From: a virus
Direction: 5' to 3' (one strand)
IMG/VR virus record: IMGVR_UViG_3300032093_000065
Coordinates: 1 to 64,000 of that record
DNA length: 64,000 nt
Numbering within the stretch: the first letter of the stretch is position 1; the number at the start of each line of letters is the position of its first letter. A model generated the notes under the pieces. It saw only the letters and a program-made list of their open reading frames with translations. It ran no database searches and was not told the DNA's origin. The position numbers were made by a program, and so were the translations under genes. Shown here in pieces: positions 34,007 through 63,435 of this stretch.

Positions 34007-34528
34007 CTACGCGTAGTCTTGGAAAAGGCAACTGGGAACTGCACCGTTTTGCCCTAAGTACCTGCCTGAGTAAGCACTTATTTTTCCAAAAGTTTTTTGA
34101 TAAGCTACCTGGCACACTTCTGTGCCGTGGTACACTTTCAACGGATGAACCACAGTTATCTCCAAAGTCCATTTACCGCGAAATCCGGTATCCCCGAATC
34201 CTGCAGTAATATGCACTTGCATACCCAGTCTGCCTATTGAACTTCTTCCTTCAATGTGCGGAACATGGTTTGGAGTTTCTGTGTATTCTTCTGTCTCTCC
34301 CAGATAAAGAACACCAGGGTTAAGGTAAAGTCCATCATCAGGAATAATCAACTCTTGGGTCTTGTTCTCCTTTCGCATATCTAGTGGGAAATTGTTGTAA
34401 ACCAGCAACCTCTTACCCAGCTTGAGGTTGTAGCTGTTGGGATTAACCTGTTTCATGTTGAATGGGGTTATAACAATATTTCCCATTTCAACTTCTTTTA
34501 TAATTTGATCTCCAGTCAAAATAGACAT
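34007..34528 (-). CDS. dcd: dCTP deaminase
   Basis: 173 residues. The family core EGRSSIGRLGMQVHITAG followed by FGDTGFRGKWTLEI is intact, with the catalytic Glu in LEI and Ser/Arg in RSSIGR. NPNSYNLKLGKRLLVY is the N-terminal signature. It converts dCTP to dUTP (trimer in known members). The start codon overlaps the polymerase stop (TGATG). With ThyX it supplies thymidylate. Confidence 0.92.
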   Translation of the reverse strand: MSILTGDQIIKEVEMGNIVITPFNMKQVNPNSYNLKLGKRLLVYNNFPLDMRKENKTQELIIPDDGLYLNPGVLYLGETEEYTETPNHVPHIEGRSSIGRLGMQVHITAGFGDTGFRGKWTLEITVVHPLKVYHGTEVCQVAYQKTFGKISAYSGRYLGQNGAVPSCLFQDYA

Positions 34529-37500
34529 CAGCCTGCTCCGTAAAATTCGTTAATACCCAACTTTGCGCACTCTTCTTTTGTAATAGGTACAGACCATCTA
34601 GTGAATACGTCTGGAGGAGGAACCTGTAAATGATACGGACCTCCAGACCCTTTCCTGGTTCCGTCTAGGTTGCATGGCCACACATCAACCCTATCGCTCA
34701 TGCACTCCGGTATGACGCTGTTTACAACCCAATCGACGCAGTTAACCGGAACCTCAAGAACTACGGCGTCATGTACCTGAAGAACTATGTCGTACCATAA
34801 CTCAGGGTCTTCTGCCTCAAGCCTGTACCAGTACAGATGGTCAAGCGCCCTGGACATGGCGTCAGCCACAGCTGACTGGACAGGGAAGTTCATGGCTTGC
34901 CTTTGCTGTTCCCCTGCAACATCTCTTTCAGAAGTTTTTGTAAACCTTCTGTACCTTCCAAAACAGTTTACTATGTAACCAGGATCTTGGCTCCTTTCAC
35001 GGCATTCTTCAAAATACTTAGGAAGAGCTGGATACATTGAAACCAAGCCTTCAATAAGCTGACGAGCTTGATCAACAGTTACGTCAGCTCCTTCTTGTTT
35101 TGCTTTTCTTGCTGTAGCCTCAGCCTGTTGCCCGTAGGCGTAACCAAAAACCACGGCCTTGGCAGCACTTCTAAGCGCGCTTTTACCGATTGACTTTAAG
35201 CCTTGCTTGGTTGGCGGACAGCTTAGACCGAAAGTATTCACAGCCACGTTGCTGTGAATGTCGTAATAGTCTGGGTCGTCTTCAGGTAAACCGCTGCGCC
35301 TGACGTGTTCAGACATGTTTAAGTCGCCAGACTGCCAAGCCATGATAGCCAGCTCTGCGCCAGTGTAGTCTGCATCCACAAACACATGCCCAGGCTTGGC
35401 CCTTATTATGGACCTGAGAGGCATCTTGTACTCTAGCTGTATCTCTGATCCGTATCTTTTGAATACAGCCTTGTATTTTTCTTCAGCCGTCTTCCCCAAA
35501 TTTTGCAAGGGAGGTCTTGCTGAGGAGGCTCTTCCTGTTTCTTTGGTTTGGAAGAACTGACTCCTGACGCGATTGTCAGCATGAAGATAAGAAAGAAGGC
35601 CGGACTCATACTCAATACGTCCATCCTCATCCCTCACAGCAGAACCTTCTTCTACACCTTTTCCTGGCCTCAAGACGTACCTAGTAAGCTGAGCTACGTA
35701 CCTTAAGTCTCGCAATAGCTCAACGCACGGATGCTTGTCAGAAAGTATTTGAAGTACTTCTTTGTCCGTGGAAACAGCGTAGTCACTTTCTATGTTCTTG
35801 GCTTTTATTTCCTTCCACATCTTAGGCCTTTTGCCTGTAGACTTGTATGGCTCCAAGTACAAAGACAAAGCTCCCTCGGGCCTGACGCTCTTTGGTTTAA
35901 AAGTTTCTTTGTCTATAACGCCGTTGTACTGCTCACCAAACATCATCTCTCGACAATGTTGAACGGAGCTGGTGTTGAACTCAGGCCAGTTTAGTTCTTT
36001 ACGCAATATCTCAAGAAGCCTGTTCTTAGCTTTTAGATAATGCTCTGTTAGAGTTTCTGCTGTTTCCAAGTCTACTTGCAAACCAGTCATGTGCATTTCA
36101 CCAAACGCAGAGCTGGCTCTCATGGATACCCAGAAAGGTTTCCTGGAGTTATTGCCATAAGAATCTCTATCTAAAGCTCCTGGCTGATCTTCTTTTCCGT
36201 TAAAAAAATCAAAAAGACGCCTGGTGCAGTCAGCGTCATAGTTGCCGTAAGGTATTAGTATTTCATCAGGGCAATCGCCGTAACCTTCCAACTGCTCTGA
36301 GTTTATCTTGTTTTGTTCACAATAAGATTTTTTCCATTTCTGTAAATCTACGTCGTATCTTGGTACGCCTACATACCTTGTACCCAAGACTTCTAGCTTG
36401 AAATCTCCAGTCTCATTGACGGAGTGCGCGGCAAGAAGTGTGTCAAAACCTCCAAACTTTTTTGTCTTTTGATAACCAAACAATTTTTCTTTTCCGTTAG
36501 CCCCTGGAGAATCCATTGGAGCCACGAAGTTACTTCTTATGTCCAGTCCTACATGCATAAGCCAAGGCATGTCAGCGTTTAGGTAATGCCCTACTACTCT
36601 TACTTTTCTTTTAGGCGTATTAGTAAAAACCTTGCTCAACTCTTCTATGACCGCAGGTATTCCTCCCTCTATCTCGGACTCTCCTCCTTGGTTGTGCAAA
36701 ACAAAACAAGCAGCTTTTCCAGGTTTCCAGGAAATCTGTATTGTTCTGACGTACGCGTTTTTTTCAGTAGGGTACGAGCCGTGCCACTCAGCATCTACAG
36801 CTACAACGTTTGAGTCAGGCTCGTTTAATATTTCCTGTACTAAGATTTTCGCCTCGTCAAGACCTTTGATCGTCCTGTGGTCTATTACCTCTTCAGCCTT
36901 CTCCTGTCCTAAGATCGTGTTTAGAAAAACTCTGACAACTCCCTTAAGATCATCAGACCTTTCAGGCTTTTTCAGTACTGCAGCAGGGCTTATACCAGTT
37001 ATAACTTTTGCTGTAAAAAACTCATCTTCGCCTTTGCCGTCTTTTACTTTTATCTCCATCACCCTTCCTTGGGTGTTTGAAGTGGTATGGCCTTTACCAA
37101 GAACAGCAGTTATAGCTTCAGAGCCCAAAGCAAGTATGAAGCTTGGCCGAACAAGCTTTATCTCTTGCTGCAGTATCAGAGAACAGTTTTTAATCCAAGA
37201 AGCTTTGAAAACTCCTCCCTTAGTGTCTGGGTGGTCATGCTTTATGACTGACGTGATGTAAAACTGTTGTTTGTCAAAAAATCCTTCTTCTTCAAAACAA
37301 TTAGCCAGTATCTCTCCCGCGTTACCGACTAGAACTTTTCTGTTGTAGTGGTTCTTAACGTGAGGCTGCTTTACTACGATCATGACGGGAGACGGAACAG
37401 GCCCTGTAGCCTGCTCCGTCCACAGCCCGCCAAGAACAAAATTAACAGTAACTTTTTTATTTAAATACGATAACGGCAATACGAAATTGTCGTCGTACAA

Positions 37501-37722
37501 AGCTCTGTAGTATAAGGCTTCAAGCTCAAAGTCGTGAGTCTTGTAGTCTATACCGTCTTTTTTTAGCAGCTCAGCGTACTCAACAAAGTCTGGACCCGGC
37601 GCGGGCAAGCCTTCAAAATTCTTTCTGTAAAAAGGAAAATTTTTGAATAGCTCTGTGTCACCGAATCTCAAAGTTTCTAAGAACCTGAGTTCGCTGTACA
37701 TCTTTCTAAAATTATCGCTCAT
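34528..37722 (-). CDS. polA: DNA polymerase I with N-terminal UDG-like and 3'-5' exonuclease domains
   Basis: 1064 residues. Residues about 95-260 follow the family 4 uracil-DNA glycosylase pattern (VLVGNAGEIL, FYITSVIKHDHP, LVRPSFILALGSEAITAVLG) but the catalytic Gly-Glu-x-Pro-Gly motif is replaced by VVKQPHV and most iron-sulphur Cys are missing, so the domain is probably not catalytic. Then comes a DEDD exonuclease (VVAVDAEWHG, VVGHYLNADMPWL, DADCTRRLFDFF). The A-family polymerase follows: motif A FVDADYTGAELAIMAW, motif B RSAAKAVVFGYAYGQ, motif C LQVHDAVVLEV, with HDA in place of the usual HDE. This is the main replicative polymerase of the phage. Confidence 0.88.
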   Translation of the reverse strand: MSDNFRKMYSELRFLETLRFGDTELFKNFPFYRKNFEGLPAPGPDFVEYAELLKKDGIDYKTHDFELEALYYRALYDDNFVLPLSYLNKKVTVNFVLGGLWTEQATGPVPSPVMIVVKQPHVKNHYNRKVLVGNAGEILANCFEEEGFFDKQQFYITSVIKHDHPDTKGGVFKASWIKNCSLILQQEIKLVRPSFILALGSEAITAVLGKGHTTSNTQGRVMEIKVKDGKGEDEFFTAKVITGISPAAVLKKPERSDDLKGVVRVFLNTILGQEKAEEVIDHRTIKGLDEAKILVQEILNEPDSNVVAVDAEWHGSYPTEKNAYVRTIQISWKPGKAACFVLHNQGGESEIEGGIPAVIEELSKVFTNTPKRKVRVVGHYLNADMPWLMHVGLDIRSNFVAPMDSPGANGKEKLFGYQKTKKFGGFDTLLAAHSVNETGDFKLEVLGTRYVGVPRYDVDLQKWKKSYCEQNKINSEQLEGYGDCPDEILIPYGNYDADCTRRLFDFFNGKEDQPGALDRDSYGNNSRKPFWVSMRASSAFGEMHMTGLQVDLETAETLTEHYLKAKNRLLEILRKELNWPEFNTSSVQHCREMMFGEQYNGVIDKETFKPKSVRPEGALSLYLEPYKSTGKRPKMWKEIKAKNIESDYAVSTDKEVLQILSDKHPCVELLRDLRYVAQLTRYVLRPGKGVEEGSAVRDEDGRIEYESGLLSYLHADNRVRSQFFQTKETGRASSARPPLQNLGKTAEEKYKAVFKRYGSEIQLEYKMPLRSIIRAKPGHVFVDADYTGAELAIMAWQSGDLNMSEHVRRSGLPEDDPDYYDIHSNVAVNTFGLSCPPTKQGLKSIGKSALRSAAKAVVFGYAYGQQAEATARKAKQEGADVTVDQARQLIEGLVSMYPALPKYFEECRERSQDPGYIVNCFGRYRRFTKTSERDVAGEQQRQAMNFPVQSAVADAMSRALDHLYWYRLEAEDPELWYDIVLQVHDAVVLEVPVNCVDWVVNSVIPECMSDRVDVWPCNLDGTRKGSGGPYHLQVPPPDVFTRWSVPITKEECAKLGINEFYGAG

Positions 37723-52185: not shown

Positions 52186-52472
52186 TCCCCTCCTTCGCCC
52201 GGCAGCGGGCCGATTGGTCGCCAGTAATCCACCGGCTTAATTTCCCAACGGTCATTTTCCCAGTAATTATCCGACCATGATACAATATTATTTCGACAGG
52301 TGGCTACTATATATCGGCCTTCAAGGGTAGGCGGCTCGGTGTGAGCATTCCGCCAGCGATTCAGGTCTTCCAGTTTTACGAGTTGCTCCAGCAGTCTGGA
52401 GTTTTCCCATATAAGGTTTTTGAACATCCTTTCCCAGTAGAAAGCTGGGTCATTGTCATCCTCACTCATCAC
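52182..52472 (-). CDS. DUF551-like protein (copy 2, in direct repeat)
   Basis: 96 residues. Helical start (DPAFYWERMFKNLIWENSRL), then DLNRWRNAHTEPPTLEGRYI and VDYWRPIGPLPGEGGE. Nearly the whole gene is duplicated at 53169-53453. Overlaps both neighbours by 4 nt. Confidence 0.7.
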   Translation of the reverse strand: MMSEDDNDPAFYWERMFKNLIWENSRLLEQLVKLEDLNRWRNAHTEPPTLEGRYIVATCRNNIVSWSDNYWENDRWEIKPVDYWRPIGPLPGEGGE

Positions 52473-52513
52473 TCACCTCCTTCGCCCGGCAGCGGGCCGA
52501 TTGGTCGCCAGTA
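52198..52513. repeat. 316-bp direct repeat, copy A
   Basis: Matches 53179-53494 at an offset of 981 bases with about two differences near the end. It spans the DUF551 gene and the 3' end of the next DUF551 gene. Confidence 0.9.
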
Positions 52514-52747
52514 TGGAACCGTAAAACCGATTGGCCACTTGCCTTTCCAGTAAGTGGCGTGGATGCTTGTGCAACCATCGAAGTCGTTATTTATCACAAG
52601 GTAGATGCCTTCCTCCGTTGGCGATTCACCATACGCGTCACGCCAGCGGAGCTGTTCACGCAGCTTGGCGTTCTCCGACTCAAGCTCAGCAATTTTCTCG
52701 TCCGCTTCGCACAACTGGTCGAGCCAGTCCACATCACGGTCGCCCAT
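52469..52747 (-). CDS. DUF551-like protein (copy 3)
   Basis: 92 residues from the ATG at 52747 (MGDRDVDWLDQLCEADEK), with GGGAGG just upstream; the longer frame is unlikely. A charged coiled coil (EKIAELESENAKLREQL) precedes RWRDAYGESPTEEGIYLV and PYWRPIGPLPGEGGE. Same ending as copy 2. Confidence 0.65.
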   Translation of the reverse strand: MGDRDVDWLDQLCEADEKIAELESENAKLREQLRWRDAYGESPTEEGIYLVINNDFDGCTSIHATYWKGKWPIGFTVPYWRPIGPLPGEGGE

Positions 52748-52806
52748 TGCATCCTCCCGCTGAACGCCCAGCCAGTCGCAAAGACTAGCTGGGCACAAAC
52801 AACCGT

Positions 52807-53103
52807 TTAGCCACCAACTCTGCCGTTGTACCAAGCAGTCACAACCGACATCGCTGCCTTAATAGCAGCCTCAGCAACAGCGTCTGGAACATCGTAAAAC
52901 TTGATGTTTTTGCCATCTTCGCCAGAAATCGCACCAACTTGCAGGGATGCCTTGTTGTCCTTGAACGAAAGGTACTTCAAGTACCCGTACCTGCTGCTGT
53001 CGCCGTTTGGCTCAGCAGCTAGTACAGGCATCCTCTGGTGGCTGTCGGAATAAGCACAGCACGAACTAGTCCAGAAACCCGGAACACTCTTATCGTCAGT
53101 CAT
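52807..53103 (-). CDS. Hypothetical protein (98 aa)
   Basis: From the ATG at 53103 (MTDDKSVPGFWTSSCCAYSD). Globular alpha/beta sequence (YLKYLSFKDNKASLQVGAI, KFYDVPDAVAEAAIKAAM). Lies between DUF551 genes and shares their higher GC, so it may have arrived with them. Not recognised. Confidence 0.6.
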   Translation of the reverse strand: MTDDKSVPGFWTSSCCAYSDSHQRMPVLAAEPNGDSSRYGYLKYLSFKDNKASLQVGAISGEDGKNIKFYDVPDAVAEAAIKAAMSVVTAWYNGRVGG

Positions 53104-53168
53104 GTTGTCACCTCGTAGCATTCCATCTCTCTGGAGTCACACCACAGAACGGCAGGTGTCGCCGTGGT

Positions 53169-53453
53169 TCACTCGCCTCCCGGCAGCGGGCCGATTGGTC
53201 GCCAGTAATCCACCGGCTTAATTTCCCAACGGTCATTTTCCCAGTAATTATCCGACCATGATACAATATTATTTCGACAGGTGGCTACTATATATCGGCC
53301 TTCAAGGGTAGGCGGCTCGGTGTGAGCATTCCGCCAGCGATTCAGGTCTTCCAGTTTTACGAGTTGCTCCAGCAGTCTGGAGTTTTCCCATATAAGGTTT
53401 TTGAACATCCTTTCCCAGTAGAAAGCTGGGTCATTGTCATCCTCACTCATCAC
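53169..53453 (-). CDS. DUF551-like protein (copy 4, duplicate of copy 2)
   Basis: 94 residues, identical to copy 2 over almost its whole length but ending GPLPGGE rather than GPLPGEGGE. It lies in the second copy of the 316-bp direct repeat. Probably a recent duplication. Confidence 0.65.
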   Translation of the reverse strand: MMSEDDNDPAFYWERMFKNLIWENSRLLEQLVKLEDLNRWRNAHTEPPTLEGRYIVATCRNNIVSWSDNYWENDRWEIKPVDYWRPIGPLPGGE

Positions 53454-55146: not shown

Positions 55147-55626
55147 TTACTGCGCCTCCTTCCGTAAACGCCTGATTTCTTCAATAAGCCTGGGTATAGC
55201 GGCTTTAGCCTCACATATGAACAACAGGTTGCTGTCATGGGTGTCAGCTGTATCCGCTAGCCTTGGAGACTGCAGCAAGGTTATCGCCACAGTCTTGGTG
55301 GAGTCCTGGTCATAGATATACCCGTCGTGTTGAAACCCTTTACCGGGGTCAACGCTTATCCAACGGGCGTTCATGCACATGTCATCGTCACCAGCCCTGG
55401 GATACCACAGGCCTGGCGTTGTCTGGTTGTGCAGCTTTTCCAAAAGAACCAAGTAATCCTCGTCCATCTTGTCTCGATGAAATTGGATGTTAACCTGGTC
55501 TGTCTCTTCTGGTGTTAACTTTAAAAAATCATTGAAGTCGCCACTGACCCAGCCTTTAGCTTCATCTTTACTAATTGGGTCGTCTACGTTGTATTCAACT
55601 TTCAAATAAAGCTTATCGTTGCTCAT
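55147..55626 (-). CDS. Hypothetical protein (159 aa)
   Basis: MSNDKLYLKVEYNVDDPISK, then TDQVNIQFHRDKMDEDYLVL, WYPRAGDDDMCMNARWISVD and a helical basic end. Not recognised, though it looks like a globular phage protein. Confidence 0.6.
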   Translation of the reverse strand: MSNDKLYLKVEYNVDDPISKDEAKGWVSGDFNDFLKLTPEETDQVNIQFHRDKMDEDYLVLLEKLHNQTTPGLWYPRAGDDDMCMNARWISVDPGKGFQHDGYIYDQDSTKTVAITLLQSPRLADTADTHDSNLLFICEAKAAIPRLIEEIRRLRKEAQ

Positions 55627-55680: not shown

Positions 55681-55797
55681 AAGCCCTGGAGGGACTCAAA
55701 CCCTCATTTCCCCTTACGCACTGGGGGTGTCCTCGTTGCAACTATTAAACGGTGCGCACGCTTATTTGCAACAGGCCTCAATTAGACGACAGGGCGT
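55681..55797 (-). tRNA. tRNA-like RNA of unusual length (candidate)
   Basis: On the minus strand: acceptor 5' half near 55797-55790 and 3' half at 55688-55681 pair over 7 of 8 positions; D-arm-like GTCTAATTGAGGC; a canonical-looking anticodon loop TTGCAAA (GCA, Cys) with a poor 3' stem; a T-arm GAGGG-TTTGAGT-CCCTC. The span is about 117 nt because about 50 extra bases lie between anticodon and T-arm, including a CCCC/GGGG hairpin. No encoded CCA. It could be a degenerate or intervening-sequence tRNA, or another structured RNA. It occupies the only noncoding stretch here. Confidence 0.35.
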
Positions 55798-56384: not shown

Positions 56385-56942
56385 TCAGTCAAGCGCTCGG
56401 AAAAGTTGATTGATGGCTTCCTCAAAACCATCAGACGAAAAGTCTGACAAGATCTGCTCTTCTTTAACAGAAGGCAGGTACGTGTCTTCAGCTGGCGAAG
56501 ACACAACGGCTTCTTGCTTTGGTGCCTCTGTTTTGCGGGGTCTTCCGCGCTTTCTGGTCAAAACTGGGAGTTGAGTCGGTTTTTGTTTAGGGCTCGAGGA
56601 AGGTCGTGTTTTGCAAGACCCCGTGAGGGCCGCGTGCTTTGCCATAAGCAAAGATGCGAGCATGTCGTTCATTACGATGACATTCCTAAGACGAGAACCG
56701 TTTGGCTCCCTCAAGGAATGCAGCACAGGCTCTGGAAGCATGACTCCGCTGGATTTCAAAGCATTGAACCTTTTGATGACTGCCGTCCTGGTCATGTGTA
56801 AAGCCTCCGCTACAGCCTCAATACCAAGGTCGTGGAATAATATCCAAGCCGCCGCAAAGATACCAACCGGCTTTGTCTTTTCTTTCTTATCTGGGTAATA
56901 ACCAAGATAAAGACAAAGGTCTTGGTAAATCTTCTTACTCAC
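56385..56942 (-). CDS. Helix-turn-helix and AT-hook DNA-binding protein
   Basis: 185 residues. Residues about 30-65 (LGIEAVAEALHMTRTAVIKR) are a helix-turn-helix. The later segment VLTRKRGRPRKTEAPKQE contains a clear AT-hook (KRGRPRK), a motif that binds the minor groove of AT-rich DNA. The C-terminus is acidic. The gene starts 54 bp from a large inverted repeat with an AT-rich core, which it may bind as autoregulator or replication initiator. Confidence 0.65.
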   Translation of the reverse strand: MSKKIYQDLCLYLGYYPDKKEKTKPVGIFAAAWILFHDLGIEAVAEALHMTRTAVIKRFNALKSSGVMLPEPVLHSLREPNGSRLRNVIVMNDMLASLLMAKHAALTGSCKTRPSSSPKQKPTQLPVLTRKRGRPRKTEAPKQEAVVSSPAEDTYLPSVKEEQILSDFSSDGFEEAINQLFRALD

Positions 56943-56996: not shown

Positions 56997-57077
56997 ATAT
57001 ACCCGGTATCATGTAGACCTTGTTCGTCTCTTTCTTCTTTTTAAGAAGAAAGAATACACCTAAAAAAAAATTTACTC
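56997..57077 (+). repeat. Inverted repeat, left arm (nested palindrome)
   Basis: 81 bp matching the reverse complement of 57140-57218 with about 10 differences including a 2-nt length change. The arm contains its own hairpin (TTTCTTCT...AGAAGAAA). Confidence 0.9.
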
Positions 57078-57139
57078 TAAACAAGTTAACTTTCTAAACA
57101 TTACTTATTTGATAAACATTAAATTAAAAAAGCATTTTT

Positions 57140-57218
57140 GAGTAAATTTTTTTTTGAGTATATTCTTTCTTCTATAAGAAGAAAGAAACGAACAAGGTCT
57201 ACATGATACCGGGTATAT
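57140..57218 (-). repeat. Inverted repeat, right arm (nested palindrome)
   Basis: 79 bp, partner of 56997-57077; the 62-bp spacer (57078-57139) is almost wholly A and T. Confidence 0.9.
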
Positions 57219-57240
57219 CTTAACATATACTTAGTTTAAA

Positions 57241-57290
57241 CAAAATAACCCGCGTGAAAACTTTTACGCTCTCACGCGGGCTATTGTTTG
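57241..57290 (-). terminator. Rho-independent terminator
   Basis: GC-rich 9-bp core stem (57249-57257 with 57272-57280), extended by AT pairs, and T-rich sequence after it on the minus strand. Directly follows the stop of the 95-residue gene. Confidence 0.8.
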
Positions 57291-57291
57291 T

Positions 57292-57579
57292 TTACGACTC
57301 TAGAACTTCTAGAAACTTCCAGAGGACTTTCTTTAGGTCTTCGATCTCAGCGTCACCGTTCAACCTTATTGAGACGGTGTCGACAGGGCTGGCTTTGAAA
57401 GCCGAGTTATCTGCAGGAGGAAAAGCCCGCACGTAAGAAGCTGCCGAAGACCCAGGGTGAAAGATAAACGTGATCAACGTAGCAGAGTCTTCTCCGCCGG
57501 TCTTTCCGGTTGTCTGGATCCTTGCTCCTAGGACGTCTCCGTCAAAGTGCCCCTTCTTTATCAGCTGGTTTATCCGCAC
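57292..57579 (-). CDS. Hypothetical protein (95 aa)
   Basis: GTG start at 57579 with AAGGAGCC upstream, overlapping the preceding gene's stop by 10 nt. RINQLIKKGHFDGDVLGARI then a beta-rich middle and a C-terminal helix. Not recognised. Confidence 0.6.
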   Translation of the reverse strand: MRINQLIKKGHFDGDVLGARIQTTGKTGGEDSATLITFIFHPGSSAASYVRAFPPADNSAFKASPVDTVSIRLNGDAEIEDLKKVLWKFLEVLES

Positions 57580-57766
57580 TGCTGGGCTCCTTCCTCTTTA
57601 AACTTTTTTGCTTTGACTTTGGTAAAGTCACGGTCATTAGTACCTCGACCTTTACTTTTAACTCTTCTACCTCCTTTTCCAGAATTATTATCCTTGCCAG
57701 CGCCGAGTGTAACCTTTCTGTCGCATCCAGAGCCAACTTGGCTGCATCCAGGTTCGTCGTTGCCAT
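57542..57766 (-). CDS. Coiled-coil protein overlapping another gene (74 aa)
   Basis: MATTNLDAAKLALDATERLH then ILEKEVEELKVKVEVL, a heptad coiled coil, and a Lys/Ser/Pro tail. A strong AAAGGAAAG site precedes the ATG. The frame overlaps the 3' half of the 141-residue gene; both look usable. Confidence 0.5.
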   Translation of the reverse strand: MATTNLDAAKLALDATERLHSALARIIILEKEVEELKVKVEVLMTVTLPKSKQKSLKRKEPSSADKPADKEGAL

Positions 57767-57992
57767 TTCTTTCCTTTATGACTACCACTTTGCTATCCGT
57801 TTCAACCCAGACAGTAGCCCCGCAAGACAGCGGTTTGTCAGGGCTGTACACAACGACAGAAGGGCCAAGTATAGCCACTTTTTTGGCGTATACGTTGGCC
57901 CCTTTTGACTTGACTGTTATTACTGGCTTACTTTCCCCTTTCTTCTTGTTTGACCTTATCACGTGCTGATTCACATGAATCTTGGTCACCAC
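57570..57992 (-). CDS. Conserved-type hypothetical protein (141 aa)
   Basis: GTG start at 57992 with AAGGAGG 7 nt upstream; the GTG at 57989 is the alternative and overlaps the preceding stop as GTGA. The N-terminal half (KIHVNQHVIRSNKKKGESKP, KVAILGPSVVVYSPDKPLSC) is a pattern I have seen in short conserved phage and bacterial proteins of unknown function. The C-terminal half is Gly/Lys-rich and overprinted by the coiled-coil gene. Confidence 0.6.
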   Translation of the reverse strand: MVTKIHVNQHVIRSNKKKGESKPVITVKSKGANVYAKKVAILGPSVVVYSPDKPLSCGATVWVETDSKVVVIKERNGNDEPGCSQVGSGCDRKVTLGAGKDNNSGKGGRRVKSKGRGTNDRDFTKVKAKKFKEEGAQQCG

Positions 57993-58180
57993 TTCAACTC
58001 CTCCTTGTCGCACTCGTCCAAAGCTTTTTCAAGCTTGTCTACCTTTTCCAAAAGAACCTCTATCGCGGCAATGGCTTCACTCCTGTAGTAGGCGTCTATA
58101 GACGGCCAGTTACCAGAATTGTCCACCTTGGCGTCTTTCAAACTTTGCAAAACTTTTTTTGGGTCTGTTCCTGCAGGCAT
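57986..58180 (-). CDS. Hypothetical helical protein (64 aa)
   Basis: MPAGTDPKKVLQSLKDAKVD and a C-terminal coiled coil (IEVLLEKVDKLEKALDECDK). Overlaps the next start by a few nt. Unknown function. Confidence 0.55.
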   Translation of the reverse strand: MPAGTDPKKVLQSLKDAKVDNSGNWPSIDAYYRSEAIAAIEVLLEKVDKLEKALDECDKEELKW

Positions 58181-58191
58181 GTGGTTCCTCC

Positions 58192-58494
58192 TTAAACTTT
58201 TAGCCCTACTTTACTGGCTACCTTCTCTAAGGTCTTCCAGTACTCGCCCTGCTTCTTCCTTATACTTTTGTCCACCTCCTTGCCTATCTTGTTAACTGTC
58301 CTGTCATCAAAGTCCGCGTCCTTCACGGCTGTGACAGTTTCAGTCAAGTCTTCCATGACTGTAGGGTTCGCGCCAGAAAACACGACAACCGTGAAAGCTA
58401 CTTTTATTTCACGGTTGTCGTGATACACCCAGGACTTTATTCCTTTCTTATTGTGACTGGTCCTGTGCAGTCTCTGCCACTTTCCGCTTAGCAC
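58192..58494 (-). CDS. Hypothetical protein (100 aa)
   Basis: GTG start at 58494 with AAGGAGATTGC upstream, inside the end of the preceding gene (47-nt overlap). Basic N-terminus (GKWQRLHRTSHNKKGIKSW), beta hairpin, then helices. Not recognised. Confidence 0.55.
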   Translation of the reverse strand: MLSGKWQRLHRTSHNKKGIKSWVYHDNREIKVAFTVVVFSGANPTVMEDLTETVTAVKDADFDDRTVNKIGKEVDKSIRKKQGEYWKTLEKVASKVGLKV

Positions 58495-60190
58495 GCAATC
58501 TCCTTTTAAGTATCAAAGTTTTGTTTGTTTTTAGTACCTGTATAAGTTCTTTATAAGCTTCCCAGTCGCTGTTTTCCATACCGATAACTAGCATAAAATA
58601 CTCTATCTGTTTGTTCCTTTCAAAAATGTAACTAAATGGACGAGTGGAAACGACCTGCTTTATCAAAGGCTCAGCCGTGTCATAAAAAGTTTTTAGCCTT
58701 CTCGCCACAAGAACGGTCAACGTGTGCCTTTCTCCTTGTTGTTCTGAAGTGGCTGACGCTCCATTACCTATACTCTCTTCAAACTTTTGAAGCTCTGTCT
58801 TTTTTTCTATATACTTAGATAAATTTTTTGATGCTCCTTCTATAGCTGCTTGCAAAATTCTTTCTTTAAAACCAAAACCAAAATCTTCACCATCGATCTC
58901 TGCGCAGCTATTGTCGTAAAAGCCTAAGCCGTCTCTAAGCCTTCTTTCTGCTTTTTCTAGTTCTTCTAGAACGCTTTCTCTAAACTTTGGATTCTCTTCA
59001 AACAATTTTTTTATTAAAATTCGTTCTTGCCTGTTGTTGTCTATAAACAAGTTGTGCAATAAAAATATGCTCCTCTCTCCTTCTTGCTTCAACTTGCTGT
59101 GAACCAAATACCATCTAGCGTACGCCAGCGTACTTTCTTTGTTTTCTTTTTTTCCATTTTCTGACAGCCAGGCTCTTCTGAAATAGAAAAGCATGTCATG
59201 CAACTCAGACTCTATACGGTTAATAACATTTTGTCTTTCTGTCTTGTAATTTTCAGGGACAGAGCAGCTGACTATTTTTTCTATGACTGAGTCCAAAATA
59301 TTCTTGTCAAAGAAAAGAAAAACTTGGATAACCAAATGACTAAACACACAGCTGTGCCTAGTCTTTTCTATGTAGTTAAACAACGTGTTAAATTGTGCAA
59401 GAAAACTTGACCTGTCATCGTCGTTTTCTTTTACCCAAGCATATTTATCTAAAGCCTCTTTTAACTCCTGCAGCTTTTCTTCAATAACCTGGTTTTGAAA
59501 TTTAACTAAAACATTTGGTCTTATGCAATCAACACAGGTTATTAAAATTTTTAGTCCTTCTATGTCGATGTGGTTTTCTATTCCAAAAATTTCTCTTATT
59601 GCTTTTTCATCTCCAATCACTCCTTTGTTGTGAAGGTATTTATGCACATCCGACGTAGTTATACCTCTGTATTTATACTCAAATCGACTATAGAAAAATT
59701 GTTTTATAAGAGACTCAAGGCCTGGCCATCTTTCTTTTATTACGTCTATGCCATATTCCACGGCCCCGCTTTCAAACTTTAAGATTACTTCTTCTATCTC
59801 CTCTAAACGACTTCCTGTTTTTTTGGCGTACTCTGTAGCCGCTTTTATAAGAGGCCAAGGAACGTCAAATACAGTTTCGTTTTTATCCATAACTTCCTTT
59901 ATTCTTTTTACTATCTCTTCTTTTATGGCGTTTGACCCTTCTTTACCCATTCTTCTTAAAACAAATTGATACAAACCTCTTGGTAGGTATTCATTCCTGT
60001 TTTCTTCTGTTGCCTTTGTCATACCTAAGAGCCTTAGAAAATCTTCTCCAGACATGATCATATTTTCAATAAACGTTTCAAACTCAAATATCCCCATTTC
60101 TTCAAATTTTTCTTCCATTACCTCCTTGGGTTTTTGCGCCTTCTCAAGCTTTTCCAGAAACTCCATACCCTGGCTTGTTATCTCCAACAT
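58448..60190 (-). CDS. Large helical protein of unknown function (580 aa)
   Basis: Begins MLEITSQGMEFLEKLEKA and is dominated by Glu, Lys and hydrophobic residues in helical repeats. No Walker, nuclease or metal motif could be read. Two segments (FKERILQAAIEGASKNLSKY, FSYIFERNKQIEYFMLVIG) end the protein. It is 3 nt downstream of a second large helical protein; the pair is the largest unexplained block of the accessory region. Confidence 0.65.
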   Translation of the reverse strand: MLEITSQGMEFLEKLEKAQKPKEVMEEKFEEMGIFEFETFIENMIMSGEDFLRLLGMTKATEENRNEYLPRGLYQFVLRRMGKEGSNAIKEEIVKRIKEVMDKNETVFDVPWPLIKAATEYAKKTGSRLEEIEEVILKFESGAVEYGIDVIKERWPGLESLIKQFFYSRFEYKYRGITTSDVHKYLHNKGVIGDEKAIREIFGIENHIDIEGLKILITCVDCIRPNVLVKFQNQVIEEKLQELKEALDKYAWVKENDDDRSSFLAQFNTLFNYIEKTRHSCVFSHLVIQVFLFFDKNILDSVIEKIVSCSVPENYKTERQNVINRIESELHDMLFYFRRAWLSENGKKENKESTLAYARWYLVHSKLKQEGERSIFLLHNLFIDNNRQERILIKKLFEENPKFRESVLEELEKAERRLRDGLGFYDNSCAEIDGEDFGFGFKERILQAAIEGASKNLSKYIEKKTELQKFEESIGNGASATSEQQGERHTLTVLVARRLKTFYDTAEPLIKQVVSTRPFSYIFERNKQIEYFMLVIGMENSDWEAYKELIQVLKTNKTLILKRRLRAKRKVAETAQDQSQ

Positions 60191-60193
60191 GGC

Positions 60194-61393
60194 TCACTCT
60201 CCTTTTTTGAATTTGACCAGGTGCCTGGCGTAAACTTCCGCCAGGCTAACACGACCAGACGCCACTATCATTTTCTCTACGTACTCTGTTCCTCCTTTTG
60301 TGGCTTTGATGAATTTTTCAATTGTCCAACCAAATTGCCAGCGATAGAAAGCTGTACAATTATCAGCTTTCATGGCCTGGACCATCCAAAAGAAACATTC
60401 TTCTTTGTTTTCTTCTTTTATGTCGTGACCTTCCGCTATAAGATCAAACAAAGTTGACATAAAAGCATAAGGATGTTTTTCTAGTTCATCCCTGTACTCT
60501 TGCCAGTTTCCTTCTTTGCAATTTTCTTCATACCTTCCATAAAGCCACTCGTTAGTCAAAGAGTTGCTTCTAGGTATTTCTATCTCTCTCCCTTCTTCCC
60601 TAGCTTTTAGAATTTTATTCTTCCTAATAGCTTCTTCTTTTAAACCTTTTATAAGAACAGTCTCTATCCTTTCATTAGGCTTTCTTATAACTTTTACGTA
60701 ATAAAAAAGAATTGCGGCTATTTTTTTGTCATAAACTTTGTCTTCATGATTTCTATAGCTTTCTAGATTTAAGCTAAGAACTATTGTTTCTAAAACACTT
60801 AGAAACTTGTTTTTAGCTTCGACGCTATTAATCGACTCAACGTAATCTTCCAAAAACTCTAGTATAATTTCAGCGGCTTCTAGCTCGTTTATCTGTAGAT
60901 TATTATTCCTAACCTCCAGTTGCTTACTTAAAAACAGCTCTGTTGTCCTTACAAGCTCTGCTTCTAACTCCTCCCATCTATCTTCATTTTCTGAGTTCTC
61001 GTCGGCATGTTTAAGAACCGAAGTGTATCGCGTGGCGTGCGCTACTGTACTCTTAAACGCTGTTTTATTATGAAACATTACTTCATAGTCAATTTCTCTA
61101 AGCTCTTTTATGATGAGGTCTTCTACAGGCTTAAACCTTTTATGCAAGATATAATTTGCATAGTCTGTAGCTATGTTTATAGACGTCAGAATTAATTCTT
61201 CGTAATGCGGATTTCCTACATAACTTCTGTTTTTATGGATTCGTCTATAGGCTTCGTACGCTGACATGCCCTTGTCTGGTTTTTTAGCTTTAAATCTGCT
61301 TTCTCCTTCTTTGACAGCAACTTTTGGTTTGTACTTTTTAGCCTTATCTATGATCTGAGCCGCCTCGATCATCTTGTCAGCTACGTCTGTCAT
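60194..61393 (-). CDS. Large helical protein of unknown function (399 aa)
   Basis: MTDVADKMIEAAQIIDKAKK, then Lys-rich VAVKEGESRFKAKKPDKGMS and long helices with HEAT/TPR-like rhythm (LNLESYRNHEDKVYDKKIAA). No enzymatic motif. Overlaps the 98-residue gene by 4 nt. Probably acts with the 580-residue partner. Confidence 0.65.
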   Translation of the reverse strand: MTDVADKMIEAAQIIDKAKKYKPKVAVKEGESRFKAKKPDKGMSAYEAYRRIHKNRSYVGNPHYEELILTSINIATDYANYILHKRFKPVEDLIIKELREIDYEVMFHNKTAFKSTVAHATRYTSVLKHADENSENEDRWEELEAELVRTTELFLSKQLEVRNNNLQINELEAAEIILEFLEDYVESINSVEAKNKFLSVLETIVLSLNLESYRNHEDKVYDKKIAAILFYYVKVIRKPNERIETVLIKGLKEEAIRKNKILKAREEGREIEIPRSNSLTNEWLYGRYEENCKEGNWQEYRDELEKHPYAFMSTLFDLIAEGHDIKEENKEECFFWMVQAMKADNCTAFYRWQFGWTIEKFIKATKGGTEYVEKMIVASGRVSLAEVYARHLVKFKKGE

Positions 61394-61686
61394 TTCTTGC
61401 TCCTGTCCTTGGTTAGTTCAAACTCAATCCTTGCCTTGATCTTGTCTACAACTTTTGAGATAGTCTCGGCATTTGGTGACTCATCTCCTTTAGGGCTTTC
61501 TCCTGGAATGACCCCAAGCTCTCTTAAGATCGACATGCAAAAATTCAAATCGTAATAGAGCTCAAAAAGATACTTGTCAGTCTTGCCTGACCCTATAGTT
61601 CTTCTTAGATACACCTCCTTCAATCTTTCTCTTATGTTTGCCAGCCGTTTGAACGGGTCTTTTATGTGATTACGACCTATCGCCAT
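61390..61686 (-). CDS. Hypothetical protein (98 aa)
   Basis: MAIGRNHIKDPFKRLANIRE, helical and basic with a YLFELYYDLNFCMSILRELG centre. Overlaps both neighbours (4 and 17 nt). Not recognised. Confidence 0.6.
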   Translation of the reverse strand: MAIGRNHIKDPFKRLANIRERLKEVYLRRTIGSGKTDKYLFELYYDLNFCMSILRELGVIPGESPKGDESPNAETISKVVDKIKARIEFELTKDRSKK

Positions 61687-62152
61687 CTTCGCTCCTCCAC
61701 CAAAAAGGTTTTTCCCTGCCCTTCCAAGAAGCTATATTTTTCTTTCCTCCTATGTAATAAGCCCTGTATGCCTCTATTACACTTTCCCTTTTGTACTCGT
61801 CAGGCATAGCCTGAGGAGGTTCGGAGAAAGGGAACTCCGGAAGAAGAACCGACTGCTTTTTGCAATCGTCTAGCACTTCTAAACACTTGTGTGTTTTTCC
61901 GTACCTGTATTGGTACTCAGAACACAAAGAAAACCCGAGAGCCACCAACCAATTAAAATTGGCCTGTGACTCTCGGGTCCATAAATTGCACGGATGGTTC
62001 TTATGAGCTTTTTTGTAGAGGGGCTTACCGCCGTGATACCACAGCGCCGTGCAAAGCAACTGCGCGGTTTCAAGCGGCATCTTGACTACATGTTTATCAA
62101 GATGCCACTTGGCGCATTCCTCTACGTCATAAGAAAGAACGAATATATTCAT
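61670..62152 (-). CDS. Conserved phage protein, HLDKHVVKM family
   Basis: 160 residues. The chain HLDKHVVKMPLETAQLL, HKNHPCNLWTRESQANFNWL, YQYRYGKTHKCLEVL and AYRAYYIGGKKN matches a family found in many phages. I recognise the pattern but cannot give a function. His, Glu and Trp positions suggest a metal or nucleotide site. Confidence 0.7.
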   Translation of the reverse strand: MNIFVLSYDVEECAKWHLDKHVVKMPLETAQLLCTALWYHGGKPLYKKAHKNHPCNLWTRESQANFNWLVALGFSLCSEYQYRYGKTHKCLEVLDDCKKQSVLLPEFPFSEPPQAMPDEYKRESVIEAYRAYYIGGKKNIASWKGREKPFWWRSEDGDRS

Positions 62153-63202: not shown

Positions 63203-63238
63203 AGCGTTCCTTTCTTTAAACACAAACTTAGCTAGGTT

Positions 63239-63400
63239 AAATCGCTTGTCTTTTTTGAAAAAAGTCAAGTGATTGGCTTTGCTAAGAAGTTTAGTAAAGA
63301 AAAGTTAACTAACTTGTTTTTAAATTTTTGTATAAAAAATTTACAAAAATTATAGCAAATGCCAAATCGCTTGACTTTTTTAAAAAAAGTCAAGCGATTT
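63239..63400. repeat. Inverted repeat of self-palindromic arms around an AT-rich core
   Basis: Left arm about 63239-63284, right arm about 63354-63400, related as inverted copies (about 40 of 47 positions). Each arm is itself a near-perfect hairpin; the right one is a 17-bp perfect stem (63364-63380 with 63384-63400). A TATAAT reads on the minus strand near 63349-63355. Confidence 0.8.
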
Positions 63401-63435
63401 GAACTCATACAACTTTGCGTGACAGCGTGACAAAC

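Follow-up and report, generated by a model that had tools for sequence, protein, structure and literature searches.

A maintained base-paired element upstream of a helix-turn-helix gene in a phage of about 190 kb and its distant relative

Phage early mRNAs, for example those of phage T7, have RNase III processing hairpins, which are paired stems between the genes of phage operons, and structured 5′ leaders of regulator genes are placed between a promoter-like sequence and the regulator start. The origin of plasmid pT181 forms a cruciform from an inverted repeat with hairpins (PMC3176155). A 222-bp inverted-repeat element at positions 56997-57218 (minus strand) of the 64,000-nucleotide virus sequence analysed here (the window, to which all unprefixed coordinates refer) invites comparison with each of these. 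It shares with the T7 sites the paired stem between operon genes, although those sites are much shorter than this putative leader. As with structured leaders, it lies between a promoter-like sequence and a regulator start, but it belongs to no Rfam family: no Rfam covariance model scored above its gathering cut-off, and a loose threshold returned mostly hairpin-shaped miRNA precursors, including plant ones, reflecting the long hairpin shape. In common with the pT181 origin it is an inverted repeat containing hairpins, and it adjoins a gene for a DNA-binding protein; however, skew or initiator evidence is absent for the phage element.

The window belongs to an 87,195-base virus record. A second record of the phage (G001, 189,675 bases) matches it at 100% identity over most of the stretch that they share, with short-piece differences in repeat regions, and because both of its ends flank the window repeat region at 52.2-53.4 kb, we infer a circular map of about 190 kb for the phage. 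In the same repeat region (52198-53269), where the copies are 91-316 bp long with 98-100% identity, the assemblies of two other records are broken. Nearly all genes of the phage are carried on the minus strand. A DNA similarity search against 50,697 phage records gave zero matches. The window also contains repair-like genes: a spore photoproduct lyase (PF20903; 53935-55095), a gene akin to proteins of which some are labelled pyrimidine-dimer glycosylase (61670-62152), and the polymerase gene, which encodes an A-family DNA polymerase joined to a uracil-glycosylase domain (34528-37722).

Read along the gene strand, the intrinsic terminator of the upstream operon (57285-57244, minus strand) is followed by AACTAAGTA (57228-57236, minus strand), an instance of the 9-mer AACTAARTA, and then by the extended -10-like sequence TGTTAAGAT (57217-57225, minus strand), a putative promoter that abuts the 5′ end of the element. 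This class of extended -10-like sequences is 4-fold enriched in the intergenic regions of the phage and lacks enrichment in the relative described below. The repeat comes next and, after about 55 nt in which no terminator was found, the downstream gene (56385-56942, minus strand), which has a GTG start directly preceded by the Shine-Dalgarno-like AAAGGAG. In its 185-aa product, residues about 25-64 form a three-helix HTH region, and residues 129-139 give a weak AT-hook match that falls under the curated cut-off. The predicted structure is of low confidence (mean pLDDT 55), and Foldseek returned matches to the model of which none was significant. Single-sequence scans of viral contigs with this protein and a 399-aa protein recovered relatives from the same phage alone, and neither the 185-aa protein nor a 580-aa protein had relatives in phage records.

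The element aligns with its reverse complement across its full span, exactly the interval delimited in the first-pass annotation. Its outer stem pairs the 5′ arm ATATACCCGGTATCATGTAGACCTTGTTCGT (57188-57218, minus strand) with the 3′ arm (56997-57027, minus strand) over 31 bp with zero mismatches. Moving inward, each arm contains one hairpin (about 57163-57187 on the 5′ side and about 57029-57053 on the 3′ side, both minus strand), confirming the nested palindromes noted previously, and these are followed by an A/T-rich inner stem and an AT-rich core at 57082-57134. The sequence TTTTTGAGTAwATTyT recurs in the repeat. Ungapped, the arms extend over 72 nt at 82%, and the highest inverted-repeat score without gaps is 40.5, compared with 9.7 ± 1.2 for shuffled sequences (shuffle maximum 13). 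Relative to dinucleotide shuffles, the fold z is -17.1 as DNA, -18.9 as minus-strand RNA and -17.1 as plus-strand RNA. With both strands considered, this is the top composition-corrected fold of the 190-kb genome (z about -9.3); the inverted repeat is genuine and far beyond chance. Further strong folds are clustered at L016:9600-12900 (G001 about 109.6-112.9 kb), second only to the repeat among minus-strand sites (z about -6).

A three-way cruciform had been proposed for this DNA. The branched form has instead a four-way junction joining the outer stem, the two hairpins and the inner stem, and it is less stable than the unbroken long hairpin, by 17-29 kcal/mol when folded as RNA and by 9-20 kcal/mol as DNA, where on the plus strand the right-hand nested hairpin alone was forced and the other arose unforced.

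A polymerase search identified a second lineage (records G004 and G005, 66% identity) in which gene order is largely preserved over the shared part. The HTH gene of this relative lies between orthologues of window 55147-55626 and 57570-58013 and is the positional orthologue of the window HTH gene; the two proteins have 40% identity across 45 residues. Scans with conserved proteins for more relatives returned the same two lineages and nothing further. Named phages with a phrog_8676 neighbour were too distant for synteny, as were the portal homologues (Salmonella phage Arash and Vibrio phages D69, D148 and D181; 27-29% identity) for use in comparison.

Located 5′ of the relative's HTH gene is an element (L036:515-700) with an outer stem about 30 pairs long and three internal hairpins, the fold z of which is -11.6 as minus-strand RNA, -8.5 as DNA and -8.6 as plus-strand RNA. 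Its architecture differs from that of the window element, and the stem encloses an intrinsic-terminator-like hairpin. In a scan of 220-base windows corrected for dinucleotide composition, the repeat spot is the top-ranked gene-strand site of each genome, G005 being a partial record. The outer arms of G005, chosen after inspection, pair better than 2000 of 2000 shuffles, and when the arms are freely chosen the pairing is matched by 8 of 1000.

The two elements appear to be homologous, with the relative carrying its base-paired element at the same place. Each record has a single minus-strand copy of the 9-mer AACTAARTA, in the same place before both elements, and -10-like sequences adjoin both. 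Their 5′ arms align (AUGUAGAnnUUGUnCG) in the pattern AACTAArTA ... TAT.ACCC ... GG ... ATGTAGAnnTTGTnCGTTT, and ACCC and ATGTAGAnnTTGTnCG within the outer-stem 5′ arm are common to the phage and its relative. The score of this alignment, which had been seen by eye before testing, is matched by 7 of 1000 shuffles, or by 2 of 1000 with softer scoring; a global MAFFT alignment of both intergenic regions did not recover it. The 3′ arms have no significant likeness by sequence alone, which fits if pairing, and not sequence, is maintained. When the separately folded stems are placed in register, they have 13 pairs in common, of which 10 are unchanged and three have changed on both sides (C-G to G-U, C-G to G-C and U-A to G-C); two pairs of the window element do not form in the relative's stem. 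The covariation consists of these three changed pairs in two independent lineages, and such preservation of pairing by two-sided changes in a homologue is expected of a structured leader. A base-paired element before the HTH gene has been maintained, with compensatory changes, in a distantly related phage. This shows that the phage's most prominent repeat is a maintained element and not the debris of a mobile element, and it provides a testable structured element ahead of a regulator gene in a phage lineage where few genes can be recognised.

Given that a mobile element is very unlikely and that an origin lacks support from GC skew (both discussed below), a control function is the best-supported reading, and 56997-57218 is probably a genuine cis-acting control element of the HTH/AT-hook-like gene. 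The annotation had suggested a regulatory hub for early genes; the part of this claim that concerns a regulatory element is strengthened by the homologous paired element before the orthologous HTH gene in the distant relative.

We tentatively prefer an RNA form of this control over a DNA form, and place the chance that the element is a structured 5′ leader of the regulator gene close to, but short of, even. Minus-strand transcription would start at the edge of the repeat from TGTTAAGAT and would turn almost all of the repeat into a long double-stranded 5′ leader hairpin ending about 55 nt before the gene start. Such a leader may tune the output of the operon through stabilisation of the 5′ end, RNase III-type cleavage of the double strand, or refolding. 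Slight evidence for an RNA read in the gene direction comes from G-U pairs, which are in excess on the minus strand. For the long-range pairs of the window element and that of the relative, respectively, the minus strand has 3 + 4 and the plus strand 1 + 0, a small excess (7 vs 1, one-sided binomial about 0.035) compared with 2 vs 2 in a second large repeat of the window. In both elements the minimum free energy is also better for the minus strand than for the plus strand.

If the element acts as RNA, it is a candidate for a new RNA family. It is conceivable, with less confidence than the leader itself, that the two elements are long-stem leader RNAs of a new family and control a regulator operon, with the same conserved block also carrying a tRNA-like RNA. 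The latter (55683-55795, minus strand; L035:19370-19490, minus strand, in the relative's lineage) lies 1.2 kb from the repeat and has no normal anticodon loop. It comprises an acceptor stem (GCCCTG/CAGGGC), a D-like arm, a T-like arm (GAGGGTTTGAGTCCCTC), a C4/G4 hairpin and, where the anticodon arm would be, a large-looped arm of 8 bp. It was detected by neither ARAGORN nor Rfam and had no match in phage records; it is strongly conserved across the two lineages, and four pairs of the tRNA-like part have changed on both sides.

The main competitor to an RNA leader is a DNA operator or cruciform, in which the repeat and its AT-rich core would bind the HTH/AT-hook-like protein of the next gene, repressing or activating its own promoter and perhaps others. 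The HTH region and AT-hook-like motif of the downstream product are consistent with such a role, as are the AT-rich core and the repeated TTTTTGAGTAwATTyT, and an AT-rich gap favours cruciform formation (PMC3176155). A further point in its favour is the second large inverted repeat (63236-63405), which is built in the same style. This repeat is smaller. The promoter-like TGCTATAAT lies between its arms, each in itself a near-perfect palindrome (AAATCGCTTGACTTTTTTTAAAAAAGTCAAGCGATTT), and on sequence grounds the repeat looks more like an operator-flanked promoter; no counterpart was found when it was looked for in the relative. However, an operator would need neither a perfect 31-bp stem nor compensatory changes at the same pairs, and in operators it is sequence that is conserved, whereas in this element pairing is kept better than sequence and the G-U bias is toward the transcribed strand. 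We consider an operator at 56997-57218 rather unlikely. Within the window, GC skew is strongest (-0.19 to -0.28) and GC content lowest (0.36-0.42) at 57000-62000, between the two large repeats.

A replication origin, at which the AT core would melt or a cruciform would form with the HTH protein as initiator, had also been put forward and is improbable. The element is AT-rich, intergenic and adjacent to a gene for a DNA-binding protein, and the cruciform at the pT181 origin provides a precedent (PMC3176155). On the 190-kb map the detrended GC skew nevertheless has its extremes at about 32 kb and about 159 kb, with a value near zero and no turning point at the repeat (3.7 kb), the skew being a weak indicator where nearly all genes share one strand; the polymerase and helicase genes are 15-20 kb away. 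The origin thus gains no positive support.

A miniature inverted-repeat mobile element (MITE), also suggested by the first-pass annotation, can be dismissed as extremely improbable despite long terminal inverted repeats and TA-rich ends, since the element is present in a single copy in the phage (identical in three records of it), a search of 84,980 prokaryotic genomes for a 23-mer of the arm found no exact match, the only ones of 2.9 million viral contigs to contain an 18-mer of the arm are records of this same phage, and the relative has a homologous element at the same place. Beyond the palindromic TA ends there is no clear target-site duplication, and the relative does not offer an empty site.

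Outside the window, the same phage contains three CRISPR mini-arrays (L011:13579-13793, L012:8934-9084 and L012:10278-10490; about 66.9-67.2, 82.3 and 83.8-84.0 kb in G000). A 24-mer of their repeat had no exact match in the 84,980 genomes, and targets of the spacers were not found among the loci examined. The arrays have a shared leader of about 60 nt and 8 spacers of 32-33 nt, and the last repeats are degenerate. Their 29-nt repeat, GTCTCACCCACGCGTGCGTGGATAAGGGG, is one that we take to resemble type I-E repeats.
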